DNA from: Niallia taxi
GTDB lineage: Bacteria > Bacillota > Bacilli > Bacillales > Cytobacillaceae
Direction of reading: 5' to 3'
Length of the DNA stretch: 64,000 nucleotides
NCBI RefSeq assembly: GCF_032818155.1
Contig: NZ_CP102589.1
Coordinates: 916,001 to 980,000 of the forward strand
Below the pieces are notes generated by a model. It did not search any database, was not told the origin of the DNA, and saw only the letters and a list, made by a program, of their open reading frames with translations. Shown here in pieces: positions 20,738 through 64,000 of the stretch. A program made the position numbers and the translations under genes. Each line of letters starts with the position of its first letter. Within the stretch, counting starts at the first letter, position 1.

Positions 20738-20774
20738 TTTAAAAAACGACTGAAGAAAAATCTTCAGTCGTTTA
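20738..20774 (-). terminator. Rho-independent terminator of the tagD-tagB operon
   Basis: On the minus strand: AAACGACTGAAGA-tttt-TCTTCAGTCGTTT followed by T's. The hairpin overlaps the last codons and stop of tagB. Confidence 0.92.
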
Positions 20775-21936
20775 ACCATTTTGTTATTAGTGCGGCAACA
20801 TTCTCACTTGCTTTGCCTGTGGAATATTCGTTCCAGCGCTTATGAAATGTTTCTACTCGTTTCAGATCATAGCTGTCTTTTTCCAAAATAATGGCCAATT
20901 CCTCTGTTGTATAGGCAACAGGTCCAGGGACGAGCTTTTCGTAATCTGTCCAAAATCCTCTGTCTTTTGCATAACTTTCAAGATCGTATGGGAAGAATAC
21001 CATTGGTCTTCTCATAAAGGAATACTCAAAAGGGATAGAGGAATAATCTGTGATGAGCAGGTCTGTAATCAAAAGTAATTCATTTATATATGGATATTGT
21101 GATACATCATAGACAGTGCCATCCATTTCAGGTATATCTGCTTTTTCTTTAATGGAGGGGTGGAGTCTAATCAGCATAATAGTGTCATCACTGAGCTTCG
21201 TTTTTAATAATGGTAAATCTAGCTTGGCATTTGTAATCCCATTATTTCCGCCCCTAAAGGTTGGGGCATATAATACGATTTTTTTGTTTTCAAGCTGTGG
21301 GTACTCTTTGTATATTTTTTTGATTGTTTCGTTTTTGCGTGTCTCATCAAGGAAAATATCAGTACGAGGTATTCCTGTGTGAATGATTTGCTGCTCTTGG
21401 ATGGAGAATGCTTCATGAAAAATAGTATCCATCTCATGTGAACCAGTTATTACATATTGAAACTGACTGTATACATCCTTGAATCGCTGATTTGCTTTGC
21501 TTGTCCGCGACTGAATACTCGAATCCTTTAAGCCGAACGTTTTAATGGCACCAGCAGCATGCCAGATTTGCAGCACTTTAACATTTGGCTTAAATCGAAT
21601 GCTAGATAGAAAACCGAAATAATTATCAAGAACAACTACCTTTGCTGTTGCAAGATGCCGTATTCCTGTAAGGAAATGCAATGGCTTACGGGGTGTGAAA
21701 TCAAGTACCTCACCAATTTGTTTTTCTTCCAGCAATTTTTTCGTTTGTGTTGTTGTTGCAAGAAAAATAGAGCGGCTATTTGCAGCGGTTTTTATTAGCT
21801 TTTCATTTATATCCAGCGTATTTTCTGGAAAAGACACACAAAAAACTATTTTCTTTTGTTGCTGGAATAGACTGCTAATCCGAAACAACAAAGAAAATAG
21901 CATTAAATAGAAGGAAATCGCAAGTTCCCTTATCAT
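20764..21936 (-). CDS. tagB: CDP-glycerol:glycerophosphotransferase, teichoic acid primase TagB type
   Basis: This 390-aa peripheral membrane enzyme transfers glycerol-phosphate from CDP-glycerol onto the ManNAc-GlcNAc-PP-lipid, priming wall teichoic acid. Motifs of the TagB/TagF fold are QIWHAAGAIKTFGLKD (catalytic His), TGIPRTDIF, YAPTFRGG, RLHPSI and DLLITDYSSIPFEYSFMRRP. An N-terminal hydrophobic, basic stretch (residues 1-30) fits membrane association. Its length is close to B. subtilis TagB (381 aa). I start at 21936, where the ATG lies one base after the tagD stop; a longer frame to 22014 would run inside tagD. It is the second gene of a tagD-tagB operon and ends in a terminator. Confidence 0.9.
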   Translation of the reverse strand: MIRELAISFYLMLFSLLFRISSLFQQQKKIVFCVSFPENTLDINEKLIKTAANSRSIFLATTTQTKKLLEEKQIGEVLDFTPRKPLHFLTGIRHLATAKVVVLDNYFGFLSSIRFKPNVKVLQIWHAAGAIKTFGLKDSSIQSRTSKANQRFKDVYSQFQYVITGSHEMDTIFHEAFSIQEQQIIHTGIPRTDIFLDETRKNETIKKIYKEYPQLENKKIVLYAPTFRGGNNGITNAKLDLPLLKTKLSDDTIMLIRLHPSIKEKADIPEMDGTVYDVSQYPYINELLLITDLLITDYSSIPFEYSFMRRPMVFFPYDLESYAKDRGFWTDYEKLVPGPVAYTTEELAIILEKDSYDLKRVETFHKRWNEYSTGKASENVAALITKWLND

Positions 21937-21937
21937 A

Positions 21938-22330
21938 TTACTTAACCTTGAATAAATCCTTTTTGATTTTAGAAGTGGAAATTCCAACAGTCCTTGGCAG
22001 GTAAACAACTTCACAATGATCTTTCAAGAAGTCGAACTTGCCTTCCCAGTCATCTCCCATTACAAATACATCGATGTTGTGGTCGATAACGTCTGTAACC
22101 TTTTGATCCCAATGGTGTTCAGGAATTACTTCATCAACATAACGGATAGCTTCTAAAATCATTTTTCTGTTTTCATAGCTGTGGTAAGCCTTTTTATCTT
22201 TAATTGCATTAAACTCATCGCTAGAAAGAGCTACTGTCAAATGGTCGCCAAGCTCTTTTGCTCTTTTAAGAATATTGATATGACCCCAGTGCAATAAATC
22301 GAAGGTGCCATAAGTGATTACTTTTTTCAT
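21938..22330 (-). CDS. tagD: Glycerol-3-phosphate cytidylyltransferase
   Basis: This 130-aa enzyme makes CDP-glycerol from CTP and glycerol-3-phosphate, the activated donor for TagB, TagF and possibly the flagellar fusion protein at 58408. The nucleotidyltransferase motif is GTFDLLHWGHINILKRA (HxGH), and the second signature is RTVGISTSKIKK. Its length matches TagD of B. subtilis (129 aa). The ATG at 22330 has AGGAGG seven bases upstream; the frame extends to 22357 without a site. tagB follows after one base. Its presence, with no ribitol-phosphate genes in view, points to a poly(glycerol-phosphate) wall teichoic acid. Confidence 0.95.
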   Translation of the reverse strand: MKKVITYGTFDLLHWGHINILKRAKELGDHLTVALSSDEFNAIKDKKAYHSYENRKMILEAIRYVDEVIPEHHWDQKVTDVIDHNIDVFVMGDDWEGKFDFLKDHCEVVYLPRTVGISTSKIKKDLFKVK

Positions 22331-22623
22331 TTGTATCCTCCTATATGAAGTTCCCATAGTCGTTATAATAACAGCCAGTCATTCTGCTATATTATTGCAT
22401 TGCAAGCAAATGTGCATGGATGGTTATCCAAGTTGTTTCTCATAGTTCTTAAATTTATGATATATTGTTTCCTAATTACCTTATTTTAAAACCTTTCCAC
22501 CATTCTGACAAGTATTTCTATATTATTCGACAGCGTCTTTCACAAAAATGAAAAAACATTGAAAAATATGTCATAATAGCGGGTGGTTGTTATAGGACTT
22601 TATGTTTAAATGATGCCTGGCTT

Positions 22624-50405: not shown

Positions 50406-50412
50406 AAAATAT

Positions 50413-50535: not shown

Positions 50536-51351
50536 ATGAGAATCAATCATAATATTGCTGCATTAAACACTTACCGTCAATTGAGCTCTGCAACAACTGC
50601 TCAATCTAAATCAATGGAGAAATTGTCTTCAGGTCAACGTATCAACCGTGCTGGTGACGATGCTGCTGGTCTAGCAATCTCTGAAAAAATGCGTGGACAA
50701 ATCCGCGGTTTGGATCAAGCATCTCGTAACTCACAAGATGGTATCTCTTTAATCCAAACAGCTGAAGGTGCATTGAACGAAACACATGCAATCCTTCAAC
50801 GTATGCGTGAGCTAGCTGTACAAGGTGGTAACGACACTAACACTACTGATGACAGAACTCAAATTCAAACAGAATTAAACCAATTAATGTCTGAAGTTGA
50901 CCGTATTGCAAATACAACTGAATTCAATACGCAAAACCTATTAAAAGGTTCTTTCTCAGCAACACTACAAGTAGGAGCTAATAATGGACAAACTATTAAC
51001 TTCTCAATTAGTGGAATGGGTGCAGCTAGTCTTGGTCTTACAGCTGCTAAAATTTCAGTAGGCACTAACTTGCTTGCAAGTGGAGCAATTTCAACACTTG
51101 ATGCTGCAATCAAGTCAGTTTCTACACAACGTTCAAACTTAGGTGCATTGCAAAACCGCCTAGAGCACACAATCAACAACTTGGATACATCTTCTGAGAA
51201 CTTGACTGCTGCTGAATCTCGCGTTCGTGACGTAGACATGGCGAAAGAAATGATGACGCAAACGAAGAACTCTATTCTTGCTCAAGCAGCTCAATCAATG
51301 CTTGCTCAAGCAAACCAACAGCCACAAGGCGTATTACAATTACTTCAATAA
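50536..51351 (+). CDS. hag: Flagellin 1 (type A)
   Basis: This 271-aa short flagellin consists only of the D0/D1 core. The N-terminal [76 protein letters not shown] region and the C-terminal region from [16 protein letters not shown] to QGVLQLLQ are shared with the other four copies. The only variable part is residues ~115-205. Types A copies 1 and 5 have [19 protein letters not shown] and [14 protein letters not shown]. The ATG at 50536 follows GGAGGAG; the upstream GTG lies inside the CsrA hairpin and is rejected. No D2/D3 domain is present. Confidence 0.96.
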
Positions 51352-51373
51352 TATGTATCATTCTTTTATCAAA

Positions 51374-51508: not shown

Positions 51509-51520
51509 ATAAAGTAGAGA

Positions 51521-51544: not shown

Positions 51545-51563
51545 GATCAAAAAAAACTTTAAC

Positions 51564-51581
51564 GTTCACAAGGATGTGGAC
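51564..51581 (+). promoter_or_regulatory. CsrA-binding hairpin in leader 2
   Basis: GTTCACAAGGATGTGGAC: the same AAGGAT loop. One C-G pair is replaced by a U-G wobble, so the stem is kept. Confidence 0.86.
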
Positions 51582-51608
51582 ACTTACATTCAGGGAGGAA
51601 AAATTACA

Positions 51609-52421
51609 ATGAGAATCAACCATAATATCGCTGCATTAAACACATATCGTCAATTAAGCTCTGCAACAAACGCACAATCTAAATCAATGGAGAAATTGTC
51701 TTCAGGTCAACGTATCAACCGTGCTGGTGATGATGCCGCTGGACTGGCTATTTCTGAAAAAATGCGTGGACAAATCCGCGGCTTGGATCAAGCATCACGT
51801 AACTCACAAGATGGTATCTCTTTAATCCAAACAGCTGAAGGTGCATTAAACGAAACACATGCAATCCTGCAACGTATGCGTGAGCTAGCTGTTCAAGGAG
51901 GTAACGATACAAACACGAGTGATGATAGAGCACAAATCAAAACAGAAATCGATCAGTTAACAAAGGAAATCGACCGTATTGCCGATACAACGGAATTCAA
52001 CACACAAAACCTATTAAAAGGTTCATTCTCTGCGACGCTTCAAGTAGGAGCTAACGATGGTCAAACAATTAACTTCTCTATCAGCGCAATGGGTGCAGGT
52101 GGTCTTGGGATTTCTGGAACAATCAGTGTTGGAACAAATGCTGAAGCTGGTGCTTCTATCTCTGCTCTTGATAAAGCAATCAAAACAGTTTCTACACAAC
52201 GTTCAAACCTTGGTGCATTGCAAAACCGCTTAGAGCATACAATCAATAACTTAGATACATCATCTGAGAACTTGACTGCGGCTGAATCTCGCGTTCGTGA
52301 CGTAGACATGGCGAAAGAAATGATGACACAAACGAAGAATTCTATTCTTTCTCAAGCAGCTCAATCAATGCTTGCACAAGCTAACCAACAACCACAAGGC
52401 GTATTGCAATTACTTCAGTAA
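51609..52421 (+). CDS. hag: Flagellin 2 (type B)
   Basis: This is a 270-aa D0/D1-only flagellin. Its ends are the same as the other copies. The variable region (residues ~115-205) is of type B: TEIDQLTKEIDRIADTTEF, then ISAMGAGGLGISGTISVGTNAEAGASISALDKAIK. It is almost identical to copy 4, differing visibly only at DTNTSDD (TTDD in copy 4) and GAGGLG (GAEGLG in copy 4). The ATG follows GGGAGG. It has its own sigma-D promoter, CsrA hairpin and terminator. Confidence 0.96.
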   Translation: MRINHNIAALNTYRQLSSATNAQSKSMEKLSSGQRINRAGDDAAGLAISEKMRGQIRGLDQASRNSQDGISLIQTAEGALNETHAILQRMRELAVQGGNDTNTSDDRAQIKTEIDQLTKEIDRIADTTEFNTQNLLKGSFSATLQVGANDGQTINFSISAMGAGGLGISGTISVGTNAEAGASISALDKAIKTVSTQRSNLGALQNRLEHTINNLDTSSENLTAAESRVRDVDMAKEMMTQTKNSILSQAAQSMLAQANQQPQGVLQLLQ

Positions 52422-52439
52422 TTTAAATAATTTGTTTTA

Positions 52440-52474
52440 AAAGGAGTGCTTGATTTTAAGGTATTCCTTTTTTC
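52440..52474 (+). terminator. Terminator-like hairpin of flagellin gene 2
   Basis: AAGGAGTGCTT...AAGGTATTCCTTTTTT: imperfect stem with T6. Confidence 0.65.
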
Positions 52475-52700
52475 TTTATTGAGTCAGGTCGGCAATCGTA
52501 TTACGTTGAGGTGTTTTTTGACCTGCTATGTGAAATGGTGGATGGGGATACTAGACACTTTTAATAGAGATTCTTTTAAAAATTTATTCTACTAAAGAAG
52601 TTTTTGTTATTCTGAAATAATTAATGGTGATGAATCTGTAAAATGAAAACTATATTATTTAGTGGTATAACCTACCATTAAAGAAAGGTTAATAATAAGT
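52475..52700 (+). other. Spacer between flagellin genes 2 and 3
   Basis: AT-rich; no ORF, repeat or flagellin-like remnant recognised. Confidence 0.45.
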
Positions 52701-52727
52701 TAAATAGAAAAAATGATATACCGATAT
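52701..52727 (+). promoter_or_regulatory. Sigma-D promoter of flagellin gene 3
   Basis: TAAA, 15 bases, ACCGATAT. Confidence 0.9.
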
Positions 52728-52740
52728 ATAAATTAGAGAG

Positions 52741-52760
52741 GGGAGGAGCGGCCGCTTCCC
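52741..52760 (+). promoter_or_regulatory. 5'-terminal leader hairpin of flagellin gene 3
   Basis: GGGAGG pairs with CTTCCC through one G-U pair around an AGCGGCCG loop. Confidence 0.6.
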
Positions 52761-52779
52761 TAATTCTAAAAATTATAAA

Positions 52780-52797
52780 GCCCACAAGGATGTGGAC
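52780..52797 (+). promoter_or_regulatory. CsrA-binding hairpin in leader 3
   Basis: CCACAAGGATGTGG core stem with the same loop. The outer pairing is weakened by one C-A mismatch. Confidence 0.82.
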
Positions 52798-52821
52798 CTA
52801 AATTCAAGGAGGAAATTTAAA

Positions 52822-53631
52822 ATGAGAATCAATCATAATATTGCTGCATTAAACACATATCGTCAATTAAGTTCAGCTACAAACGCTCAATCAAAATCAA
52901 TGGAAAAATTGTCTTCAGGTCAACGTATTAACCGTGCTGGTGACGACGCTGCTGGACTAGCAATCTCTGAAAAAATGCGTGGACAAATCCGCGGTTTGGA
53001 TCAAGCATCTCGTAACTCACAAGATGGTATCTCTTTAATCCAAACAGCTGAAGGTGCATTGAACGAAACACATGCAATCCTTCAACGTATGCGTGAGCTA
53101 GCTGTACAAGGTGGTAACGATACTAACACTACTGATGACAGAATACAAATTCAAACAGAGTTGACTCAATTGACTTCTGAAATTGACCGTATTGCTAATA
53201 CAACTGAGTTCAATACACAAAACCTACTAGGTGGTTCTTTCTCTGCAACTCTACAAGTAGGGGCTAATGATGGACAAACAATCAACTTCTCTATTTCTAA
53301 GATGGATAGTGCTGGATTATCTGTTGGATCACTTAGCGTGACTTCAAACGCAGCTGCAAGCTCATCTATCTCTAAATTAGATGAAGCAATCAAAACAGTT
53401 TCCACACAACGTTCAAACCTTGGTGCATTACAAAACCGTCTAGAGCACACAATCAACAACTTGGATACATCATCTGAGAACTTGACTGCAGCTGAATCTC
53501 GCGTTCGTGACGTAGACATGGCGAAAGAAATGATGACACAAACAAAGAATTCTATCCTTTCTCAAGCAGCTCAATCAATGCTTGCGCAAGCAAATCAACA
53601 ACCACAAGGTGTACTACAATTGCTTCAATAA
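52822..53631 (+). CDS. hag: Flagellin 3 (type C)
   Basis: This is a 269-aa D0/D1-only flagellin and the only type C copy. The variable segment reads [32 protein letters not shown], then SKMDSAGLSVGSLSVTSNAAASSSISKLDEAIK. It shares the conserved ends with the other copies, so it can co-assemble or be exchanged by recombination. The ATG at 52822 follows AAGGAGG; the longer frame starts inside the CsrA hairpin. It occupies the centre of the array and is flanked downstream by the relic of another flagellin gene. Confidence 0.96.
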   Translation: MRINHNIAALNTYRQLSSATNAQSKSMEKLSSGQRINRAGDDAAGLAISEKMRGQIRGLDQASRNSQDGISLIQTAEGALNETHAILQRMRELAVQGGNDTNTTDDRIQIQTELTQLTSEIDRIANTTEFNTQNLLGGSFSATLQVGANDGQTINFSISKMDSAGLSVGSLSVTSNAAASSSISKLDEAIKTVSTQRSNLGALQNRLEHTINNLDTSSENLTAAESRVRDVDMAKEMMTQTKNSILSQAAQSMLAQANQQPQGVLQLLQ

Positions 53632-53646
53632 TGAGTATTATATGGA

Positions 53647-53681
53647 GAAGGGCTTCCAGTTTTAAAGGAAGCCCTTTTTCT
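53647..53681 (+). terminator. Terminator of flagellin gene 3
   Basis: GGGCTTCC...GGAAGCCC stem followed by T5. Confidence 0.92.
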
Positions 53682-53956
53682 ATAATTCCCCAACAGTATA
53701 TTAGTTACTAGTTTTTTAATAAATTCTTTTTCCTAGAATTAATGGTTTGAATAAATAATTTCATATTTCCTTTCTTTCCTCATGATAGGAATTACCTACT
53801 AAACTTTGTTTACAGTAAAACTGTTAGTGCTTGTAAACTAATTGCTTTTGCAGATTTAGAGAGAAGTTTTTTGAATGAATTAATTAGTACTCAATCTTCA
53901 TTATCACGACAATTATTATCATGATTTCTATACTGAATTTAATAATTTGATTGGAT

Positions 53957-54024
53957 AGTCTATAAACAAGGAATAGGTTTCTTAAGCAAGTCAACTAGCA
54001 CAAGGTGTAATTCAATTGTTTTAA
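53957..54024 (+). pseudogene. 3' relic of a sixth flagellin gene
   Basis: The last 39 bases, 53986-54024, translate as ASQLAQGVIQLF-stop, an obvious decayed version of the flagellin end [17 protein letters not shown]. The DNA also aligns (GCAAGTCAACTAGCACAAGG against GCAAATCAACAACCACAAGG). Upstream, ATAAACAAGGAATAGG resembles ACAAACAAAGAATTCT of the intact genes, with a deletion of about 30 bases between. The remainder of the gene is gone. A flagellin-type terminator hairpin follows at the usual distance. GCAGATTTAGAGAGAAG near 53851 could be a degraded promoter/leader. Confidence 0.78.
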
Positions 54025-54045
54025 TAATTTTAATCATTTTTGTAA

Positions 54046-54078
54046 AAGGATTACCTATTAATAGGTAGTCCTTCTTTG
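54046..54078 (+). terminator. Terminator retained after the flagellin relic
   Basis: AGGATTACCTATT-AATAGGTAGTCCT stem followed by TCTTT. The hairpin is intact although the gene before it is lost. Confidence 0.75.
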
Positions 54079-54211
54079 TAGTTTAACCTTTATGTTCTCT
54101 AGCAGTAATGTGTTTATACACTAATTTAAATTAAGAAGGTGGATGATAAAAAAACTCTAACACATGGGCTTATACTAAATAAGTTGTTGTATTCATGGAA
54201 TAATCTACCGG

Positions 54212-54238
54212 TTAACTAGGAAGTTGTTTTCCCGATAT
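54212..54238 (+). promoter_or_regulatory. Sigma-D promoter of flagellin gene 4
   Basis: TTAA, 15 bases, CCCGATAT. Confidence 0.88.
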
Positions 54239-54290
54239 ATAAAGTAGGGAGGGGAGGAGCGGCCGCTTACCTAATCCCAAAAACTATAAA

Positions 54291-54308
54291 GTCCACAAGG
54301 ATGTGGAC
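54291..54308 (+). promoter_or_regulatory. CsrA-binding hairpin in leader 4
   Basis: GTCCACAAGGATGTGGAC, identical to leader 1. Confidence 0.88.
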
Positions 54309-54334
54309 ACCTAAATTCAAGGAGGAAAATTAAA

Positions 54335-55147
54335 ATGAGAATTAATCACAATATCGCTGCATTAAACACATACCGTCAATTAAGCTCTGCAACAAACGCT
54401 CAATCTAAATCAATGGAAAAATTGTCTTCAGGTCAACGTATCAACCGTGCTGGTGACGATGCTGCTGGTTTAGCAATCTCTGAAAAAATGCGTGGACAAA
54501 TCCGCGGCTTGGATCAAGCATCTCGTAACTCACAAGATGGTATCTCTTTAATCCAAACAGCTGAAGGTGCATTGAACGAAACACATGCAATCCTTCAACG
54601 TATGCGTGAGCTAGCTGTACAAGGTGGTAATGATACAAACACTACTGATGATAGAGCACAAATCAAAACAGAAATTGACCAATTAACAAAAGAAATAGAT
54701 CGTATTGCCGATACAACGGAATTCAACACACAAAACCTATTAAAAGGTTCATTCTCTGCGACGCTTCAAGTAGGAGCTAACGATGGTCAAACAATTAACT
54801 TCTCTATCAGCGCAATGGGGGCTGAAGGCCTTGGGATTTCTGGAACAATCAGCGTTGGAACAAATGCTGAAGCTGGTGCTTCTATCTCTGCTCTTGATAA
54901 AGCAATCAAAACAGTTTCTACACAACGTTCAAACCTTGGTGCATTACAAAACCGCTTAGAGCATACAATCAACAACTTAGATACATCATCTGAGAACTTG
55001 ACTGCAGCTGAATCTCGCGTTCGTGACGTAGACATGGCGAAAGAAATGATGACGCAAACGAAGAATTCTATTCTTTCTCAAGCAGCTCAATCAATGCTTG
55101 CACAAGCTAACCAACAACCACAAGGTGTACTACAATTACTTCAATAA
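54335..55147 (+). CDS. hag: Flagellin 4 (type B)
   Basis: This is a 270-aa D0/D1-only flagellin of type B, nearly identical to copy 2 in both conserved and variable regions (TEIDQLTKEIDRIADTTEF; GAEGLGISGTISVGTNAEAGASISALDKA). Long stretches of the variable region are also identical to copy 2 at the DNA level, including synonymous positions, which points to recent duplication or gene conversion. The ATG follows AAGGAGG. It has its own sigma-D promoter, CsrA hairpin and terminator, although the 5' stem in its leader has one mismatch. Confidence 0.96.
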   Translation: MRINHNIAALNTYRQLSSATNAQSKSMEKLSSGQRINRAGDDAAGLAISEKMRGQIRGLDQASRNSQDGISLIQTAEGALNETHAILQRMRELAVQGGNDTNTTDDRAQIKTEIDQLTKEIDRIADTTEFNTQNLLKGSFSATLQVGANDGQTINFSISAMGAEGLGISGTISVGTNAEAGASISALDKAIKTVSTQRSNLGALQNRLEHTINNLDTSSENLTAAESRVRDVDMAKEMMTQTKNSILSQAAQSMLAQANQQPQGVLQLLQ

Positions 55148-55167
55148 TTTATTTAATATCTTTCAAG

Positions 55168-55205
55168 AAAGAGGACTGTCAATATGCGACTGTCCTCTTT
55201 TTGCT
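55168..55205 (+). terminator. Terminator of flagellin gene 4
   Basis: AGAGGAC...GTCCTCT stem followed by T5. Confidence 0.85.
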
Positions 55206-55432
55206 TTTTTTACGACGTATAAGATGAATATATCCTTTTTTGTATGAAATGCAGTGTATAAGTGAATAATAAATATAATGATATTGTGAACTTGGGTTCT
55301 TTAATTTCTTTGTGAATGCTCCTCTTTGCTTATATGGGATTGTTCTTATTGGTGACATAGTATGTCTTATATCCTTTATAAAGTTTTTGTAGTCCTAGAG
55401 ATTTAAATTATAAAAACTTTATAAAAACAGGT
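55206..55432 (+). other. Spacer between flagellin genes 4 and 5
   Basis: AT-rich; no ORF, repeat or RNA element recognised. Confidence 0.45.
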
Positions 55433-55458
55433 TAAACAAAAAACTATCTGTCCGATAT
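55433..55458 (+). promoter_or_regulatory. Sigma-D promoter of flagellin gene 5
   Basis: TAAA, 14 bases, TCCGATAT. Confidence 0.9.
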
Positions 55459-55508
55459 ATAAAGTAGAGCGGGGAAGACAAATTCTCTCTTGCTTTAAAA
55501 ATAAGAAT

Positions 55509-55526
55509 GTCCACAAGGATGTGGAC
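55509..55526 (+). promoter_or_regulatory. CsrA-binding hairpin in leader 5
   Basis: GTCCACAAGGATGTGGAC, identical to leaders 1 and 4, although the rest of leader 5 has diverged strongly. Confidence 0.88.
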
Positions 55527-55552
55527 ACCAAATTCAAGGAGGAAGCTTTACA

Positions 55553-56368
55553 ATGAGAATTAATCACAATATCGCTGCATTAAACACTTACCGTCAATTG
55601 AGCTCTGCAACAACTGCTCAATCTAAATCAATGGAGAAATTGTCTTCAGGACAACGTATCAACCGTGCTGGTGACGACGCTGCTGGTCTAGCAATCTCTG
55701 AAAAAATGCGTGGACAAATCCGCGGTTTGGATCAAGCATCTCGTAACTCACAAGATGGTATCTCTTTAATCCAAACAGCTGAAGGTGCATTGAACGAAAC
55801 ACATGCAATCCTACAACGTATGCGTGAGCTAGCTGTTCAAGGTGGTAACGACACTAACACTACTGATGACAGAACTCAAATTCAAACAGAATTAAACCAA
55901 TTAATGTCTGAAGTTGACCGTATTGCAAATACAACTGAATTCAATACGCAAAACCTATTAAAAGGTTCTTTCTCAGCAACACTACAAGTAGGAGCTAATA
56001 ATGGACAAACTATTAACTTCTCAATTAGTGGAATGGGTGCAACTAGTCTTGGTCTTACAGCTGCTAAAATTTCAGTAGGAACTAACACGCTTGCAAGTAG
56101 CACAATTTCAACTCTTGATGCTGCAATCAAGTCAGTTTCTACACAACGCTCAAACTTAGGTGCATTGCAAAACCGCCTAGAGCACACAATCAACAACTTG
56201 GATACATCTTCTGAGAACTTGACTGCTGCTGAATCTCGCGTTCGTGACGTAGACATGGCGAAAGAAATGATGACGCAAACGAAGAACTCTATTCTTGCTC
56301 AAGCAGCTCAATCAATGCTTGCTCAAGCAAACCAACAGCCACAAGGCGTGCTTCAATTACTTCAATAA
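55553..56368 (+). CDS. hag: Flagellin 5 (type A)
   Basis: This is a 271-aa D0/D1-only flagellin of type A, differing from copy 1 at only a handful of residues in the variable region (GATSLG for [16 protein letters not shown] for [10 protein letters not shown]). DNA identity with copy 1 is very high across that region, including silent sites. The ATG follows AAGGAGG. It is the last flagellin and sits directly before the glycosyltransferase block. Its terminator ends only about 33 bases before the next start codon, so read-through of this gene's sigma-D transcript is the simplest way to express that block. Confidence 0.96.
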
Positions 56369-56391
56369 TAAAATACTTTAGTAGTTCTATT

Positions 56392-56432
56392 GAAATATCG
56401 TGCTTCGTTTTATTAAAGCACGATATTTTTAT
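56392..56432 (+). terminator. Terminator of flagellin gene 5
   Basis: AAATATCGTGCTT...AAGCACGATATTT stem followed by TTATT. The T-run is short, so it may be leaky. Confidence 0.83.
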
Positions 56433-56462
56433 TAGCATTATTAATAATCAGGAGGAATAATC

Positions 56463-58379
56463 GTGAATATAAAAGTATCATTATGCATGATTGTAAAAAA
56501 CGAAGAGAATGTATTGGATCGCTGCTTGGCATCAGTGGCACATTTAGTTGATGAAGTGATTATTGTAGATACAGGGTCAACTGACAAAACGAAGGAAATT
56601 GCAAGTAAATATACGTCTAAATTATATGACTTTGAATGGGTTAATGATTTTTCGGCTGCAAGAAATTATGCTGCAGAACATGCAACTGGTGACTGGATTT
56701 TAGTATTAGATGCTGATGAATTTATTGATGAGGAAAATTATCAAGAATTTTTAAACGGATTAGAAGAGGATAATGGCGAATTTGACACATATGGTGTTAA
56801 AATAATCAACTTTACTGGTTTGTATGGAGAGAAATTAGTTCAAAATTATCATGACCGTGTGTATAAAAATAACAAAGAGATTGCCTATTATCGTGCTATT
56901 CATGAACAATTAAAGGGTGTTGATGGACAATCACTGAACGGAAGTATAGCAAAGCTTTCGGTATTTCACTCTGGATATATGAATCAAACTGTTGCAGAAA
57001 AGGGAAAGAATGAAAGGAATAAAGACCTTCTTGATAAAGAAATGCAAGAAAGTAATAATGCATTTGATTACTTCAATTTAGGTAATGAATATTATTCTCA
57101 AGGAGAGTTTGAAGAGGCATTAAAAGCATATACAAAAGCTTATAACTTAAAGAGCAGTTATCAATTATCATGGGTTGCATCTACTGTAATCCAGATAATA
57201 AGTGTGTTAATACAATTAAAGAGATATAATGATGCAGTTAATGTGATAGATGACTCTATTGAGCTATATCCAGGCTCATTTGAAATGATCTTCTTAAAAG
57301 GTGAAATTAGTTTTGTTAGAGGACAATATGATGATGCCAAGTATTACTTTGAAGAGATAATAAACAATAGTGAAAAGTATAATCATACAATCTTAAGACC
57401 AGACTTAAAAGATCAAATGCCCCACAGAAGGCTTGGAGATATATACAACTACGAGAAGGTATATGACAAAGCTATTTATCACTATATGAACGTACTGAAT
57501 ATAAATAAGTTGGATAGTGACAGCATAATAAAGATTATTTTCATCCTAAATAAATTCCATACTGAAGATGAGATTATACAATTTATTGAAAGAAATGACC
57601 TGATTAATAAAAATAATTTAAGCTATTACATGACAGGGTGTTTTGATATTGGGAAACCAAATATAATTGAACCTTTTCTAAAATATAATAATGAAGACAA
57701 ACTGTTAGAGAAAATATACAAACTAAAAAATTACTGTTTAACTGGCACAGGAAATATTGAAGAATTTAATGACTTGTTAAATCCTAAATTAGTTGAGCGT
57801 TTAAATCAGAAACAAATGTTAAACATTATTGACTTATATTTTTTAAGAAGTAGGCTCTTAGAAGGAAATCAATCACCTTTGCTTATTACTGCCTTTGAGA
57901 AAGATGAGCATGTAAGTATGTTGGTTAAATTATTGAATAATTTAACAGTCGGAAAATTAGATGAGGCGGAATTATTTTTAGGTTCTCTTCAAATCCTTAT
58001 GAACTATAAGAAATATGATCTAGCATCCAATTTATTAAATAATAAACAGTTATTAACAGATTCTGCACTTGTGAAGGCAGCAGCTATTCTTTATGAGAAT
58101 GATTTTAAAGGAGAGGGTCTTCAATTATACAATGCATGTGACTGGGATGTTTATACTGAACAAGATTTCCTGAATATAATAAATGGTCTATTTGAAACTG
58201 GAAATGATCCGAATGCTATTGAATTCACAAAATATGCTAATTTGTTATTCGAAAATGACTTCAGATTCTATAAAATCTTACTGGAGAACCCAATTGATGA
58301 TCACCTGTTTAATACTACAGTAAAAAAAGCGTTAGAGACTTTTAAAGGAAGCGTTTATTTGGAAAAGTATCTATTATAG
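56463..58379 (+). CDS. GT2 glycosyltransferase with TPR domain, probable flagellin glycosyltransferase
   Basis: This is a 638-aa cytoplasmic protein. A GT-A domain (residues 1-~200) has KVSLCMIVKNEENVLDRCLASV, EVIIVDTGSTDKTKE, FSAARNYAAEHATGDWILVLDADEF with the DXD metal motif, and an AIHEQL segment. The rest is helical with TPR-like repeats (FDYFNLGNEYYSQGEFEEALKAYTKAYNL is the clearest), suited to gripping a protein acceptor. This resembles SunS-type and flagellar GT2-TPR enzymes. The start is GTG with AGGAGG six bases upstream. It is the first gene of a three-gene block placed between flagellin 5 and flaG. The sugar donor is unknown. Confidence 0.87.
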   Translation: MNIKVSLCMIVKNEENVLDRCLASVAHLVDEVIIVDTGSTDKTKEIASKYTSKLYDFEWVNDFSAARNYAAEHATGDWILVLDADEFIDEENYQEFLNGLEEDNGEFDTYGVKIINFTGLYGEKLVQNYHDRVYKNNKEIAYYRAIHEQLKGVDGQSLNGSIAKLSVFHSGYMNQTVAEKGKNERNKDLLDKEMQESNNAFDYFNLGNEYYSQGEFEEALKAYTKAYNLKSSYQLSWVASTVIQIISVLIQLKRYNDAVNVIDDSIELYPGSFEMIFLKGEISFVRGQYDDAKYYFEEIINNSEKYNHTILRPDLKDQMPHRRLGDIYNYEKVYDKAIYHYMNVLNINKLDSDSIIKIIFILNKFHTEDEIIQFIERNDLINKNNLSYYMTGCFDIGKPNIIEPFLKYNNEDKLLEKIYKLKNYCLTGTGNIEEFNDLLNPKLVERLNQKQMLNIIDLYFLRSRLLEGNQSPLLITAFEKDEHVSMLVKLLNNLTVGKLDEAELFLGSLQILMNYKKYDLASNLLNNKQLLTDSALVKAAAILYENDFKGEGLQLYNACDWDVYTEQDFLNIINGLFETGNDPNAIEFTKYANLLFENDFRFYKILLENPIDDHLFNTTVKKALETFKGSVYLEKYLL

Positions 58380-58407
58380 AAAAGGATTATTCAAAAGGGG
58401 TTAAAGA

Positions 58408-61017
58408 ATGATTATTGATATTGTATTAGTGTATGCCGCTGGCCGCGGTGGTTTAGAAGATGTTGTAGCTACAGTCAGCGAGGAACTGACAAAAAAAGGG
58501 CATAGGGTAAGGTTTTTTCAATCTTATCCTTCTCTAAATCCAGACTGGGAACAGGGTCTGCCTGAACTCTATTACTATGGAGAAATGGGAAACCTTGAAA
58601 GTGAAACACTGCAATCATTGTCCAAAGGATATGCTAATAAATTAAAAGAGGCAGGAAAGCCAGATATTGTCCTTGCGACACATGCACCAAGTATAAGTTA
58701 TATATGTCGTTCTGCTATTTCTAGTGTGGAAGGAAAGATGGCCCCAGTACTTTCATGGCTTCATGGCCCACCTGAATATTATGGAAATGAAAACATGTTA
58801 AGATACAGCGAAGCTCATCTTGCTATATCCTCTCAAATTGGCGAAAGCATAGGTAAAAATACTTTTGAAGGACAACCAGTTTATAATGTGGGAAATCCTG
58901 TCATTAGAAATGAGTTTGAGACGATAAATAGAAGTGAAGGAAGAACATTAGAGCTTCTTTATGTTGGAAGGCTTCATCAGCATCAAAAAAGGCTAGACAT
59001 TCTTTTTAAAGGACTAGAATTACTGGAAGCTGATTGGAGACTTCATTGCATAGGGGAAGGACCGGATGGAGATGAAATAAGAAACTTAGCAGATAAGCTG
59101 GGAATCAAGGATCAGATCCTGTTTCATGGCTGGCAGGAAAATCCATGGGATGTTGTAGAAGAAGTTTCTGCGCTAGTTATGAGCTCTGACTATGAAGGCC
59201 TTCCACTCGTTCTTATGGAAGCGCTTGGGAGAGGAATACCTGTTATTTCTACAAATTGCAGTGGTGCATCAGATATTATTAATGATGGGGAAAACGGTTG
59301 GATTTACCCAATTGGAGACTTCCATGCTCTTGCTAATATCCTTCAAAAAATCGGGGAAGATCAGAGCATATTGCCTTCTGTTGAAACATGTAAGGCAAGT
59401 GTTCAAAAGTTCCACTATTTAAAGGTTGTTGATAATATTGAGATGATTTTGAAGTATCATCATGAACTGTTTTTGCAGCAATCTGATAACAGGGTTTCTC
59501 ACATTGTAAAAGATAATTCCTATTGGAAATCTCAAGTTGTTAATAATATTCTTGATTCTGTTATTAATGGAATTGAATATTTAGGTACAACAAGGGAGAC
59601 TGTTATACAGGAAAAACTTGCGGATTATTTCTCACGAGAATTTATGGAACTTATTCAGCAGGATGACCAAATAGTAGACGATAAGGAAAAAGTGATAGCA
59701 TACGTTTGTTATCCTAAGGTTGACTTAATCGATTATACATTCATGAAGGCTAAAGTAAGCTTTCTGTTAGTTAATGATATTCAAGATGGGGATACTTCCA
59801 CTAAAGAAAAGCTGCATTATTCTGCAAGGCTTTTCAATGAAAATGGCAAATGGAAAATTTCAGAACTTATCTTAGCAGATGATTACCCGATTGAATCGCG
59901 TCCAAAAAAAGAGCGAAAACAAAAGGTACTCTTAGTAACTACTTCTAACAGCAGTTCTTCTAATACGGCTGCTTTATATAAAAATATGCCTAAACACATT
60001 TCAGATAGCTTTGAAGTGGAAATTACAGAGCAAAGACTGACAGATGAGTATTATCAAAAGGTCCTTGCTGCAGATATACTTGTACTGACAGAAGCGAATG
60101 TCATTTTTGATAAGGAACAAAATGTTCCAAACCAAACGATAATTGATTTATGGCATGGTTTTCCATTAAAGGCAATGGGACATGCAGATAGAAATGAAGC
60201 AGACCGAAACGCTGTGACAGAAAGATGGAAAAATATCGACTATGTTTGCTCATATTCAGATAAATTTAGTGAAATGATGACGCAATGTTTTAAAGTTGAT
60301 CCAGAAATATTCCAAATTACGGGAATGCCTCGAAATGATTTGTTAATAAATTCTCATCTTAATATAGATAAGTCTGTTCTGGAAAGATTATTCCAAATCA
60401 AAACAGAGGGTAAAAAGTTTATCATGTTTATGCCGACATATCGAAAGGCAGCTTTTAATAACAGACAGGATACAACATTGAATAGAAACCATTTTTTTGG
60501 ATTGGAAAGATTTAATTCAAATGAGTTTACTGCGTTTTTGAAAAAAAATAATTTGGAATTGATTGTAAAATTCCATCCAGTTGAAGAACAATATATGCTG
60601 AAAAATGGAATTGAACTAGGAGAACATGTTCATTTGTTGACACATGAAATGCTATTTGAAAATAATTTGGATATGTATGATGTTTTAGGCAAGTTCGATT
60701 TGCTGATGACAGATTATTCTTCTGTATACTTTGATTATTTGTTGATTGATAAACCAATTATTTTTCTTCCTATTGACGTAGAGCAGTATAAGACAACAAG
60801 AGGATTTATCTTAGGTGAATATGATAAGTGGACACCAGGAGCAAAAGTGACGACTCAGGAACAACTTCAGGAAGAAGTTCTAACAAACTTAAAAGACAGT
60901 GAGAAGTTTGCTGCAGAAAGAGCAAAGGTACGTGATATTGTTCATTATTATCAAGATGATGTTTCATCGTCCAGAGTTTGGGATTTCATAAAGCAAAGGG
61001 CCATTTCTAACAATTGA
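58408..61017 (+). CDS. Fusion of GT4 glycosyltransferase and CDP-glycerol:glycerophosphotransferase, candidate flagellin modification enzyme
   Basis: This 869-aa protein has three parts. Residues 1-~345 are a GT-B/GT4 glycosyltransferase (AAGRGGLEDVVATVSEELTKKGH; LLYVGRLHQHQKRLDIL; then SSDYEGLPLVLMEALGRGIPVISTNCSGASDII). Residues ~360-505 are a linker domain of NTF2-like appearance ending ARLFNENGKWKISELIL. Residues ~510-869 are a TagB/TagF-type glycerophosphotransferase: IDLWHGFPLKAMG with His583, GMPRNDLLI, FMPTYRKAAF, VKFHPVEEQY and DLLMTDYSSVYFDYLL with Asp769. All catalytic motifs of both halves are present. It lies between two GT2-TPR genes in the flagellin locus, so glycosyl plus glycerol-phosphate decoration of flagellin is inferred. 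The ATG follows AAAGGGG. Confidence 0.88.
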   Translation: MIIDIVLVYAAGRGGLEDVVATVSEELTKKGHRVRFFQSYPSLNPDWEQGLPELYYYGEMGNLESETLQSLSKGYANKLKEAGKPDIVLATHAPSISYICRSAISSVEGKMAPVLSWLHGPPEYYGNENMLRYSEAHLAISSQIGESIGKNTFEGQPVYNVGNPVIRNEFETINRSEGRTLELLYVGRLHQHQKRLDILFKGLELLEADWRLHCIGEGPDGDEIRNLADKLGIKDQILFHGWQENPWDVVEEVSALVMSSDYEGLPLVLMEALGRGIPVISTNCSGASDIINDGENGWIYPIGDFHALANILQKIGEDQSILPSVETCKASVQKFHYLKVVDNIEMILKYHHELFLQQSDNRVSHIVKDNSYWKSQVVNNILDSVINGIEYLGTTRETVIQEKLADYFSREFMELIQQDDQIVDDKEKVIAYVCYPKVDLIDYTFMKAKVSFLLVNDIQDGDTSTKEKLHYSARLFNENGKWKISELILADDYPIESRPKKERKQKVLLVTTSNSSSSNTAALYKNMPKHISDSFEVEITEQRLTDEYYQKVLAADILVLTEANVIFDKEQNVPNQTIIDLWHGFPLKAMGHADRNEADRNAVTERWKNIDYVCSYSDKFSEMMTQCFKVDPEIFQITGMPRNDLLINSHLNIDKSVLERLFQIKTEGKKFIMFMPTYRKAAFNNRQDTTLNRNHFFGLERFNSNEFTAFLKKNNLELIVKFHPVEEQYMLKNGIELGEHVHLLTHEMLFENNLDMYDVLGKFDLLMTDYSSVYFDYLLIDKPIIFLPIDVEQYKTTRGFILGEYDKWTPGAKVTTQEQLQEEVLTNLKDSEKFAAERAKVRDIVHYYQDDVSSSRVWDFIKQRAISNN

Positions 61018-61033
61018 AAGATTAGGTACTGAC

Positions 61034-62089
61034 ATGAAAATATCGTTAGCAATGATAGTCAAAAATGAAGAGAAATCAGTAACAAAATGTATTCTAAATG
61101 CAAAAAAAATAGTGGATGAAATTGTGGTAGTAGATACTGGATCTACAGATAGCACACTTAAGGTCTTGAAGGAGTTTTCTCACATAAATCTTTTTCGATT
61201 TCAGTGGGAAAACGATTTTTCAAAGGCCCGTAATTTTGCAATTGAACAATGCACGGGCGACTATATTCTAGTATTAGACGCAGACGAGTATGTAACATTC
61301 GGCAAAAGAAGTGAGCTTGAAAAAATAATGAAGCAACACCAAATTGGCAGGATGAAAATCGTCAGCAAATTTAAGAAAGACGGCCAAGTATATGAGGCAA
61401 GCTCGTATATCTCTAGGTTTTTTCCGAAAGAGGTTCGTTTCACTGGAGCTATTCATGAACAGCTTGAATCTAATTTGCCAAGAGTTGATATGAAGCTGAC
61501 TGTAGCTCATACTGGCTATTTGGATAAGGAAAAAGGCTCTAGAAATATACCGATTCTTCATCAAGAGCTTGAGAAGTATCCCAATGATGCCTACTACCAT
61601 TATCAACTTGGGAAGGAATACAGATTAAAACGAGAATTTCAACAATCTTGGCTGTACTTGATGAAGGCGTACAAGCTAGCGGATGATCGTTATGCCTATT
61701 ACAACCAGCTCATATTGGAGCTATTGCAAACAGGGAAGGAACTGGCTGATAAAGGCACCATCTCTGTAATTGTTGAAAACGAGATAAAGCTTAAACATGT
61801 TACAGATTTTCATTTTTATAAAGGGCTGTTTTATCTAGATTATTGCCTAAAGCACTTGGAAGAAGCGATAAACCTGCTTCCTAATATTGAAGCAAGCTTC
61901 CTGGAATGTATTGCGATTAGCAAGAAAAAGCATATCGAATATCTATCAGGAACGGCCAGCTTTCTAGCGCTTTACAATTTAGGCGTTTATTATGAAGCAA
62001 TTGGCGCTGTACCAAATGCTAAAAGGTATTATATGGAGTCTGCTAAACTTGGTTATGAACCAGCCAAGACACGGCTCTCCGCTATGTAA
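61034..62089 (+). CDS. GT2 glycosyltransferase with short TPR domain
   Basis: This 351-aa enzyme is related to the one at 56463. Its GT-A domain has KISLAMIVKNEEKSVTKCIL, EIVVVDTGSTDSTLK, FSKARNFAIEQCTGDYILVLDADEY and FTGAIHEQLES; the helical C-terminal part has YHYQLGKEYRLKREFQQSWLYLMKAYKL and a final TPR (FLALYNLGVYYEAIGAVPNAKRYYMESAKLG). It is half the size of the first GT2-TPR, with fewer repeats. It starts 16 bases after the fusion gene and is the last gene of the block. A strong terminator follows. It probably adds a further sugar to the same acceptor or to another flagellar protein; this is inference. Confidence 0.87.
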   Translation: MKISLAMIVKNEEKSVTKCILNAKKIVDEIVVVDTGSTDSTLKVLKEFSHINLFRFQWENDFSKARNFAIEQCTGDYILVLDADEYVTFGKRSELEKIMKQHQIGRMKIVSKFKKDGQVYEASSYISRFFPKEVRFTGAIHEQLESNLPRVDMKLTVAHTGYLDKEKGSRNIPILHQELEKYPNDAYYHYQLGKEYRLKREFQQSWLYLMKAYKLADDRYAYYNQLILELLQTGKELADKGTISVIVENEIKLKHVTDFHFYKGLFYLDYCLKHLEEAINLLPNIEASFLECIAISKKKHIEYLSGTASFLALYNLGVYYEAIGAVPNAKRYYMESAKLGYEPAKTRLSAM

Positions 62090-62095
62090 TTGGAA

Positions 62096-62141
62096 AGGGA
62101 AGGCAGTTTGGCATTTTTGTCGAACTGCCTTCCCTTTTTAT
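62096..62141 (+). terminator. Rho-independent terminator of the glycosyltransferase block
   Basis: GGGAAGGCAGTT...AACTGCCTTCCC strong stem followed by T5. Confidence 0.93.
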
Positions 62142-62167
62142 AAACACAGGAAAGAAGCCGCCGATAT
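62141..62167 (+). promoter_or_regulatory. Sigma-D promoter of flaG-fliD
   Basis: TAAA, 15 bases, GCCGATAT: a perfect match to the sigma-D consensus, 38 bases before flaG. Confidence 0.95.
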
Positions 62168-62204
62168 AATGGTGGTAGTATATATTTTTTAGGGGGAAAT
62201 GCCT

Positions 62205-62570
62205 ATGATAGAAAAGTATTCTTCAAATGGCGTCTATTCAGCTCAACAGCTCAAAACCAGTGAGAATATTGTGACGAAGGGTAACGATGCAACTACCGAA
62301 CCACAAGTAGAGGAGAATAAGGCTGTAAATCTTGTCGATAAGGAAAAAGAGAGAAAAAACCTAGAAGGCTTGATGGCCAGCTTAAATGATTTCATGCCTG
62401 CACACACATCCCTTAAATTCCAGCTTCATGATAAGCTGGAGGAGTATTATGTGCAAGTTATTGATGATCAAACAAAAGAGGTAATAAGAGAGATACCCTC
62501 AGAAAAGATGCTTGATATTCATGCTGCGATGAAAGAGTATTTGGGCTTAATGGTAGACAAAAAAATTTGA
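62205..62570 (+). CDS. flaG: Flagellar protein FlaG (YvyC)
   Basis: This is a 121-aa protein with a polar N-terminus (~40 residues) and the FlaG domain LEGLMASLNDFMPAHTSLKFQLHDKLEEYYVQVIDDQTKEVIREIPSEKMLDIHAAMKEYLGLM. The RxIPSEKMLD motif is diagnostic. FlaG proteins influence filament length and are encoded beside fliD. I prefer the ATG at 62205 because AGGGGG lies eight bases upstream; for the ATG at 62199 it would be only two bases away. It is the first gene after a perfect sigma-D promoter. Confidence 0.92.
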   Translation: MIEKYSSNGVYSAQQLKTSENIVTKGNDATTEPQVEENKAVNLVDKEKERKNLEGLMASLNDFMPAHTSLKFQLHDKLEEYYVQVIDDQTKEVIREIPSEKMLDIHAAMKEYLGLMVDKKI

Positions 62571-62621: not shown

Positions 62622-62803
62622 TAAAAAAACTACATTTGATTTTTTAAATAAACACCATTTATAAATAGGTAAAAAGTAAGATATCTTAATAAAATGTTAA
62701 AGGCTGAATAGGACTGGCCGATAATAATAGTAATCAATGATTATATTTAAAAAATAGCAACACACTATTGATTTAAATATAAAAAAAGTACGAGGTGAGG
62801 AAT

Positions 62804-64000
62804 TTGGTTTTAAGAATAGGCGGACTTGCAAGCGGCATGGATATCGACTCCTTAGTAGAACAGCTAATGACTGCGGAAAGAGTTCCGTTGGACAAGTTGA
62901 ATCAAAAGAAAACATATACAGAGTGGCAGCGAGACGACTATCGCGAAATGAACACCTTGCTACTGTCATTAGACACGCTAATGTCAGAAGGCGTCGCAAA
63001 GCAGTCGACATTTATTAAGAAGACGATTAATTCATCCAATTCAGATGCATTGGGTGTTAAAAATATAACGTCTACAGTTGATTTTTCAGGTTCCATACAA
63101 ATAGACAAGCTGGCAACTGCTGCTTCTATGCGAAGTGGAACAACCGCTGATGGAAAAACTGGTATTACAAACTACACTACAACTGGAACATTAGATTCTT
63201 ATAATATAACTGGAAGCAAAATAACAGTATCTGCTATTGATGCAAATGGAGTTATGTCTAGTAAAGATATAACATTTGATCCTAAAACAGATACGATGGA
63301 TTCACTTATTTCAAGAATAAATCAGCAATCAGGTGTGACAGCATTTTATGATCCGAATTCCAATCAAATTTCTTTTACTGCGAAAAATACTGGGGATATT
63401 AAAGACGGACCTGAAATCTCACTTAGTACTGACGGAACTTTGCTAGATGTTCTAAAGTTGGGTACGAGCAATACTGATACTACGCAAGGTGTTAATACTA
63501 ACGGAACAAATGCTGAATTTATATACAATGGTGTGGCGACAACAAGATCTTCCAACACCTTCCGCATCAACGGTGTTGAACTGACACTTAAACAAGTCAC
63601 AGAATCAGGCAAGCCAGTAACGTTCTCATCAACGGCTGATGTTGATTCTATTTATGACTCGATTAAAACCTTCGTGGATAAATATAACGAAATAATTGAC
63701 AAGATTAGCGATAAAATTGGGGAAACAAAATACAGGGACTATGCTCCGTTGTCTGATGCGCAAAAGAAAGAGATGACAGATGATGACATTGAAAAGTGGG
63801 AAGAAAAGGCGAAGAGTGGAACACTAAAAAATGATCAAATCCTTTCCAGTGTCTTAACTAAAATGCGTTCAAGTCTTGGCTCTATTGTGAACACAGGAGG
63901 AGCATTCAAAAGACTTTCTGATATTGGAATTTCCACTACAAACAACTATTTAGAAGGCGGCAAGCTGGAAATCAATGAAGACAAGCTAAAGGAAGCAATC
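62804..64000 (+). CDS. fliD: Flagellar filament cap protein FliD (3' end outside window)
   Basis: The reading frame is open from the TTG at 62804 to the last base, giving 399 residues of the cap protein that folds exported flagellin at the filament tip. The N-terminus LRIGGLASGMDIDSLVEQLMTAERVPLDKLNQKKTYTEWQRDDYREMN is unmistakable FliD. Later segments NTFRINGVELTLKQV, DSIKTFVDKYNEIIDKIS and LSDIGISTTNNYLEGGKLEINEDKLKEAI also fit. The start is TTG with CGAGGTGAGG upstream. It follows flaG and is presumably transcribed from the same sigma-D promoter. The missing C-terminus, and usually fliS and fliT, should follow beyond 64000. Confidence 0.95.
   Translation, partial: MVLRIGGLASGMDIDSLVEQLMTAERVPLDKLNQKKTYTEWQRDDYREMNTLLLSLDTLMSEGVAKQSTFIKKTINSSNSDALGVKNITSTVDFSGSIQIDKLATAASMRSGTTADGKTGITNYTTTGTLDSYNITGSKITVSAIDANGVMSSKDITFDPKTDTMDSLISRINQQSGVTAFYDPNSNQISFTAKNTGDIKDGPEISLSTDGTLLDVLKLGTSNTDTTQGVNTNGTNAEFIYNGVATTRSSNTFRINGVELTLKQVTESGKPVTFSSTADVDSIYDSIKTFVDKYNEIIDKISDKIGETKYRDYAPLSDAQKKEMTDDDIEKWEEKAKSGTLKNDQILSSVLTKMRSSLGSIVNTGGAFKRLSDIGISTTNNYLEGGKLEINEDKLKEAI

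Follow-up and report, generated by a model that had tools for sequence, protein, structure and literature searches.

The window analysed here, a 64,000-nucleotide stretch of the Niallia taxi genome (G000; contig NZ_CP102589.1, positions 916,001 to 980,000), contains in its flagellin locus a gene for an 869-amino-acid (aa) protein that joins a GT4 glycosyltransferase to a TagF-like phosphotransferase. The gene is flanked by two GT2 glycosyltransferase genes, whose products are called enzymes A and B below. Together, these three genes (56463–62089) probably build a flagellin glycan that is extended with glycerol-phosphate from CDP-glycerol. The computed evidence consists of the domains of the fusion, its catalytic residues, its conserved flagellar locus, swaps of its domains in relatives and a link to tagD, the glycerol-3-phosphate cytidylyltransferase gene.

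Domains and catalytic residues of the fusion protein

Both halves of the fusion exceeded curated Pfam cut-offs, with PF00534 (GT4) at residues 173–319 (E 1.1e-29; 103.7 bits, cut-off 26.4) and PF04464 (Glyphos_transf) at residues 535–861 (E 3.5e-60; 204.3 bits, cut-off 22.1). The original prediction had proposed a complete GT4 and a complete TagB/TagF-type domain in one chain and had called for a profile search; the profile search and alignment recovered both domains and the active-site residues. The closest solved relative of the GT4 half in the PDB was WaaB (5n80; E 8.8e-39). This half carried the donor-binding arginine and lysine (R188, K194) and a glutamate pair (E263, E271), which we take to be the two glutamates of the EX7E motif. 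The TagF-like half was closest to TarL (E 2.4e-15), TagF (4e-15) and Cps3D (1.4e-11). Both catalytic histidines of TagF had an equivalent in it. His583, correctly placed by the prediction in the WHGFP motif (residues 582–586), aligned with H444, and His723, which the prediction had not named, aligned with H584. Asp769 was also placed correctly, as the TDYSS motif starts at residue 768.

None of the named Tar equivalog cut-offs of NCBIfam was reached by the fusion (TarF 73.9 of 550 bits, TarL 70.5 of 1000, TarB 53.4 of 500). The separate TagB-like and TagF-like proteins of the window also missed the Tar cut-offs, but outscored the fusion by far. For the middle region of about 155 residues, the Pfam search gave no family, only a weak match to PF16800 (IseA; E 0.0032) below the cut-off. 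A scan of the genome contigs for named relatives of the fusion returned a single match, a Photorhabdus GT4 (29%). An AlphaFold model of the whole fusion, built on a four-row alignment, was rejected as too poor (mean pLDDT 44.5, pTM 0.30).

Both halves of the fusion are under purifying selection. The ratio of nonsynonymous to synonymous substitution rates (dN/dS) in the three pairs of G000, G005 and G006 was 0.11–0.14 for the whole gene, 0.09–0.12 for the GT4 half, 0.10–0.12 for the TagF-like half and 0.16–0.24 for the middle region. The G+C content is uneven across 56463–61017 (enzyme A 0.30, GT4 half 0.396, middle region and TagF-like half 0.329; window 0.376), as if the parts differed in origin.

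Conservation and reshuffling in flagellin loci

Relatives were sought in 13 genomes of the genus, 193 of the family (E 1e-30) and 397 of the order (E 1e-42), with at most four (family) or two (order) of the best first-look candidates scored per genome, so that misses are possible. Among the 193 family genomes, full-length fusions were found only in G000, G005 and G006. Those of G005 and G006 matched at 87% and 92%, and the gene order from the last flagellin to fliD was unchanged; G005 had an extra GT2-like gene among its flagellins. The order search added full-length fusions in G569 and G411 (41–42%), which belong to another family. The flagellar link of the fusion is thus conserved, with the gene lying in the hag–flaG interval in five species of two families.

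The gene between the GT2 pair is exchangeable. Congeners G002 and G011 kept the pair around a different protein of 493–496 aa (L064:3649-5139; L076:3337-4818) with HP and TTDSS motifs. We do not claim this protein as a PF04464 relative, as it scored 17.3 bits against this profile in one genome, below the cut-off, and gave nothing in the other; a profile comparison with the TagF-like set returned 2% probability (E 0.024, 102 columns). Congeners G007 and G012 had islands with a Maf-like gene. In the stretches read of the remaining six, no open reading frame (ORF) of at least 100 aa matched the glycosyltransferases of the window (blastp against the window proteins only; the interval of G010 was split over two contigs). 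The five GT2-type genomes had flagellins of 269–271 aa, compared with 374 aa for both G007 and G012 and 363–649 aa for the six others. ORFs between flagellin and flaG in G008 and G009 (L066:2272-3273, L069:2119-3021) may encode LAGLIDADG-type endonucleases, judging by a sequence motif.

Each pair of the three activities (GT2, GT4 and TagF-like) occurs in one chain or in adjoining genes in some species, since fusions and neighbours of these kinds were found in G313, G570, G458 and G411. In the hag–flaG interval of G313 and G570, the TagF-like domain was joined to a homolog of enzyme A in proteins of 1009 and 1004 aa (checked with Pfam in G313), and the GT4 was the next gene. G458 encoded the GT4 and middle part as a standalone protein (48% over 491 aa), followed by a distant PF04464 gene, and G411 had a GT4-plus-middle gene upstream of its full fusion. 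In the fusions of G411 and G569 (L102:9739-12285; L101:9073-11577), R188 and K194 of the GT4 half were replaced by other residues close to a gap, but all three positions checked in the TagF-like half were conserved. Halves can therefore decay in this family, as the GT4 half looks degenerate in both proteins. Together with the general tendency of GT-B folds to drift in their donor, this would fit a TagF-like half that is now an ordinary GT-B glycosyltransferase or a non-catalytic scaffold. We regard this as highly improbable given that both catalytic histidines and the TDYSS aspartate were kept in all seven domain-bearing proteins of the alignment, that dN/dS over this half is low and that the domain is linked to tagD.

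The TagF-like domain was found more widely than the fusion. It lay in the flagellin locus in 7 of the 12 genomes with a domain hit in the order search (G000, G569, G411, G313, G570, G523, G454); in the other five (G026, G106, G508, G025, G546), the stretch read contained no flagellar gene. A class search gave seven further genomes, two with the domain beside flaG and fliD (G617, G914; no flagellin gene in the stretch read) and five without a flagellar gene in the stretch read (G881, G756, G827, G765, G828). The family and genus searches placed it in the flagellin locus of G005, G006, G007, G075 and G076. Five GT4-only matches in the order search were flagellar in G458 and among polysaccharide-type genes in G038, G455, G339 and G388. 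In G617, the TagF-like gene adjoined tagD and lay between homologs of both GT2 enzymes, near flaG and fliD. With G000 left out, 8 of the 18 genomes that gave a domain hit in the order and class searches had it in a flagellar locus. The binomial chance of this, 2e-14, is an illustration and not a test: it uses our estimate that 0.5% of a genome is flagellar region, and it ignores both the kinship of the genomes and the flagellar origin of the query. A tree of 23 domains had a branch (support 77/71, recovered in 81% of bootstraps) with all 13 flagellar ones on the same side, and none of 500 shuffles scored as low.

PF04464 enzymes are classically teichoic-acid enzymes, and the fusion might act on wall teichoic acid, lipoteichoic acid or exopolysaccharide, its flagellar position being incidental. 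The domain has relatives beside tagB/tagD or polysaccharide genes in G025, G508, G546 and G026, and a teichoic-acid-like cluster lies about 22–41 kb from the fusion in the window. This cluster has separate TagB-like and TagF-like proteins, which together with the fusion are the only three PF04464 proteins of the genome, all within the window. The TagB-like and TagF-like proteins split off from the domain in the tree with 100/100 support. Four relatives had no PF04464 match (E 1e-5) outside the flagellar locus at all, and two species carry the domain in one chain with a GT2-TPR homolog. With the hag–flaG position kept across two families, we judge a wall or polysaccharide target improbable.

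The partners of the fusion also point to flagellin. The original prediction placed the fusion between two GT2-TPR glycosyltransferases; both GT2 domains were confirmed, and enzyme A had the TPR as well. Enzyme B gave no Pfam TPR match at E 0.01; its TPR likeness consisted of a weak match to NCBIfam TIGR00540 (E 0.0039) and an alignment to the first part of enzyme A (37% identity over 230 columns). The best solved relative of both was the flagellin O-N-acetylglucosamine (GlcNAc) transferase GmaR of Listeria (enzyme A: 22ao, E 3.7e-55, residues 5–199, and 7x9s, E 8.4e-24, residues 236–384; enzyme B: 22ao, E 3.1e-28). Enzyme A shares with GmaR-type flagellin glycosyltransferases a GT2 domain followed by TPR. 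GmaR additionally has an antirepressor domain. Its N-terminal domain transfers GlcNAc to flagellin, and recognition of flagellin has been proposed for its TPR domain (PMC9638930). Flagellin as the target is supported by the conserved place of the fusion, the swapped domain fusions and these GmaR-like partners.

The donor of the TagF-like domain

A tagD gene above the curated cut-off was present in 13 of the 14 genomes that have the domain in a flagellar locus, G914 being the exception. It lay inside the flagellar locus in G075, G076, G454, G523 and G617. G075, G454 and G617 each had a single tagD and a single PF04464 match (E 1e-5), both of them in this locus, and the one tagD and two PF04464 genes of G076 all lay there too; the tool estimated the completeness of these four genomes at 99–100%, and the contamination of G076 at 6%. 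Judging by these gene contents, the flagellar-locus enzymes are the only PF04464 enzymes that CDP-glycerol could serve in the four genomes. In G523, a second tagD exceeded the cut-off, and PF04464 matches numbered six. As a single case, G012, whose Maf-type locus lacks the domain, had no tagD in the 19.9-kb first stretch of the two read for this locus.

Each of 13 genomes had one strong IspD match. The others were weak (E 6e-11 or weaker) and lay in frames of 456–512 aa; the one exception, a 235-aa frame, was the nucleotidyltransferase-like gene in the flagellar locus of G914. Therefore, no TarI-type CDP-ribitol enzyme was seen in the 13 genomes. For the N. taxi genome, CDP-ribitol was set aside as the donor, with one strong PF01128 match (1.9e-74), assumed to be the isoprenoid enzyme, and one weak match (2.8e-8, above the cut-off) in a 456-aa frame, which we take to be a putative GlmU. 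CDP-glycerol as the donor is supported by the flagellar-locus-only tagD and PF04464 genes of the four genomes and by the one strong IspD-type match here.

The domain could also transfer another phospho-alcohol from a CDP-activated donor to flagellin, comparable to the Clostridioides difficile type A glycan with its N-methyl-phosphothreonine. For that glycan, CDP-threonine is the predicted donor with which the TagF-like CD0244 modifies flagellin GlcNAc (PMC10714395). A similar donor would suit G914, in which the domain is flagellar, tagD has no match and a nucleotidyltransferase-like gene is near. In the N. taxi locus, the only long ORFs between the last flagellin and flaG were the two GT2 genes and the fusion, with no cytidylyltransferase, phosphatase-like or methyltransferase gene in that interval. 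Moreover, tagD is the only TIGR01518 match of the genome, and four relatives carry it in the flagellar locus only. We thus consider a phospho-alcohol other than glycerol-phosphate unlikely. Nucleotidyltransferase-like genes near the TagF-like gene, in stretches without tagD, were seen in G914 (L125:7351-8046) and G106 (L083:7904-8617), and may make a different activated donor.

Several observations weigh against glycerol-phosphate transfer to flagellin. Since the TagF-like half is only remotely similar to characterised enzymes (E about 1e-15), it does not reveal which donor is used. Enzymes A and B each had a sub-threshold match to the peptide S-glycosyltransferase SunS as well. Relatives of the domain occur in polysaccharide and teichoic-acid clusters too, and a 30-row tree needs two changes of the flagellar label (0 of 500 shuffles were as low) and gave one group in 10% of bootstraps. 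Another protein occupies the place of the fusion in congeners G002 and G011. In G569, the hag–flaG interval contains no GT2-TPR, and R188 and K194 are missing from the GT4 half of the fusion.

The tagD link has its own exceptions. G914, with a flagellar-locus homolog and no tagD match, needs another donor. In G458, the fused TagF half and a tagD match are both absent, which speaks for the link; yet this genome, which is 93% complete, carries three PF04464 genes, and the two that lie elsewhere must use another donor, or tagD was missed. PF04464 enzymes are therefore not always paired with tagD. Only G617 of the eight GT2-type or fusion loci (G000, G005, G006, G411, G569, G313, G570, G617) had tagD in the flagellar stretch, and the tagD found elsewhere in the other seven may serve the wall. 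The original prediction drew CDP-glycerol from a nearby tagD; the gene is present in the window, but it lies 36 kb from the fusion in an apparent wall-teichoic-acid cluster, where it has an obvious other use. Its proximity is therefore weak evidence, and the argument from nearness was rejected. The predicted glycerol-phosphate-bearing flagellin glycan itself is supported in part, by the target and donor evidence from comparative genomics.

Proposed pathway, related systems and features of the window

In the pathway that we propose for glycerol-phosphate addition, enzyme A would start the glycan on cytoplasmic flagellin with a sugar that is probably O-GlcNAc, and the GT4 half of the fusion and enzyme B would add further sugars. 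TagD would supply CDP-glycerol, from which the TagF-like half would next transfer sn-glycerol-3-phosphate to the glycan; the acceptor may be handed on between the active sites of the fusion. Export would put a negatively charged, phosphodiester-bearing glycan on the filament. We infer everything chemical in this scheme, namely in what sequence the steps run, which sugars are used, that the group transferred is glycerol-phosphate and that flagellin, rather than FliD or another filament protein, is the acceptor.

A glycerol-phosphate step on a flagellar glycan is known in outline from a few other bacteria, not in this form. The design is thus less new than the original prediction, which knew of no characterised system of this kind, had assumed. 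The type A system of C. difficile 630 (glycosyltransferase CD0240, TagF-like CD0244) and PA1091 (FgtA) of Pseudomonas aeruginosa PAO1 likewise place a glycosyltransferase and a TagF-like phosphotransferase at a flagellin locus. FliC peptides carry only GlcNAc after loss of CD0244, although an earlier study saw no clear change, and PA1091 is a predicted glycosyltransferase/TagF-like fusion in a strain whose flagellin sugar bears an unknown group via a phosphodiester (PMC10714395). The type A system differs by its proposed CDP-threonine donor and dedicated genes cd0241–cd0243, of which no counterpart was found among the long ORFs between hag and flaG, the interval searched. By description, the N. 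taxi locus differs from both by the GT4 fusion partner and the tagD carried by relatives. The fusion works like the type A modification and was not classed as a member of it.

In enterobacterial flag-2 loci (VR1), orthologs of TagB, TagD and LtaS lie beside flagellin glycosyltransferases, and a teichoic-acid-like flagellin glycan was proposed (PMC6993521); this is another flagellar system in another phylum, with no GT4–TagF fusion named and no chemistry given in the part of the paper used. One strain with a Geobacillus-type flagellin glycosylation island, G. thermoglucosidans DSM 2542, has tagD and pgs in it, which its authors read as a phospholipid-type flagellin modification; the word teichoic is absent from the main text (PMC5109656). 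The open-access literature searched held no report of a GT4–TagF fusion at a flagellin locus or of glycerol-phosphate shown on flagellin.

Like the fusion, the capsule polymerases Cps3D and Cps7D have a TagF-like domain and a GT-B domain in a single chain, and they use CDP-glycerol and a UDP-sugar; in Cps1B and Cps7D, alanine at the matching histidines stopped polymer synthesis (PMC5974469). The locus of the fusion is flagellar, whereas these enzymes make polymers for the capsule of Gram-negative hosts, and the domain order is reversed in Cps3D. The GT4 and TagF-like halves might similarly alternate and form a short poly(glycosyl-glycerol-phosphate) on flagellin, a protein-linked teichoic acid. 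The domain would then have been exchanged among GT4 and GmaR-like partners, and some species would use CDP-glycerol, as far as these enzymes go, for flagellin only. We think it unlikely that the fusion is such a chain-forming enzyme.

If glycerol-phosphate is transferred to flagellin as proposed, CDP-glycerol, usually a cell-wall precursor, would also feed a protein modification, and in some species it may serve flagella alone. Species with the sole CDP-glycerol gene and the sole TagF-type gene in the flagellar locus would be clean, testable systems. The annotation of PF04464, whose presence is often read as wall teichoic acid, would change. Filaments bearing a charged phosphodiester could differ in bundling, in adhesion and in how phages attach to them.

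Table 1. Features of the fusion gene, its flagellin locus and the teichoic-acid-like cluster (window coordinates)
Feature	Position	Strand	Evidence
GT4/TagF-like fusion, 869 aa	58408..61017	+	ATG start, no internal stop; Pfam, NCBIfam, PDB searches
GT4 half, residues 1–345, WaaB-like; R188, K194, E263, E271	58408..59442	+	PF00534; PDB WaaB 5n80
Middle region, residues 346–500	59443..59907	+	common to GT4 proteins of G458 and, partly, G411 (alignment)
TagF-like phosphotransferase half, residues 501–869	59908..61017	+	PF04464; PDB TarL, TagF, Cps3D
His583, equivalent of TagF H444	60154..60156	+	alignment to 3l7i
His723, equivalent of TagF H584	60574..60576	+	alignment to 3l7i
Asp769 of TDYSS	60712..60714	+	motif position
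GT2-TPR glycosyltransferase A, GmaR-like, 638 aa	56463..58379	+	PF00535 and TPR (Pfam)
GT2 glycosyltransferase B, 351 aa	61034..62089	+	PF00535 (Pfam)
Flagellin 1	50536..51351	+	
Flagellin 2	51609..52421	+	
Flagellin 3	52822..53631	+	
Flagellin 4	54335..55147	+	
Flagellin 5	55553..56368	+	
Terminator-like hairpin between last flagellin and GT2-TPR A	56385..56436	+	-16.3 kcal/mol, z -4.5
Strong terminator-like hairpin at the end of the three-gene unit, following GT2 B	62092..62142	+	-36.3 kcal/mol, z -10.4
flaG	62199..62570	+	PF03646; NF005834 over cut-off
fliD, cut by window end	62795..64000	+	matched in each of 13 genus genomes
TagB-like PF04464 protein	20764..22014	-	PF04464 E 8.5e-83; best NCBIfam TarB 204.8 bits, below cut-off 500
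tagD, glycerol-3-phosphate cytidylyltransferase	21938..22357	-	TIGR01518 E 6e-63, over cut-off; genome's sole TIGR01518 match
TagF-like PF04464 protein, 729 aa	31412..33601	+	NCBIfam TarF E 1.9e-140, 468 bits, below cut-off 550; PF04464 430 bits

The gene order, five flagellins followed by enzyme A, the fusion, enzyme B, flaG and fliD, is as originally described. The three genes look like one unit, since the gaps flanking the fusion are 28 and 16 bases, hairpins stand at either end and no SigD-like site lies directly before enzyme A. The unit is perhaps fed by read-through from the last flagellin. A SigD consensus scan with no chance control gave sites at 50412/50413, 52701, 55433, 62141 and 62698. 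A Sigma-70 promoter scan was uninformative (33 sites found, 33.5 expected).

The wall-teichoic-acid-like cluster (16162–36721) comprises GalU, TagA-like, GalE, TagB-like, TagD, LytR-type, TagF-like, ABC permease and TagO/WecA-like genes, and also encodes a 1313-aa PA14/glucosaminidase protein. The five tandem flagellins (50536–56368) of 269–271 aa are near-identical except for a short central stretch, in which flagellin 1 resembles 5 and flagellin 2 resembles 4. G006 and G002 likewise had five flagellins.

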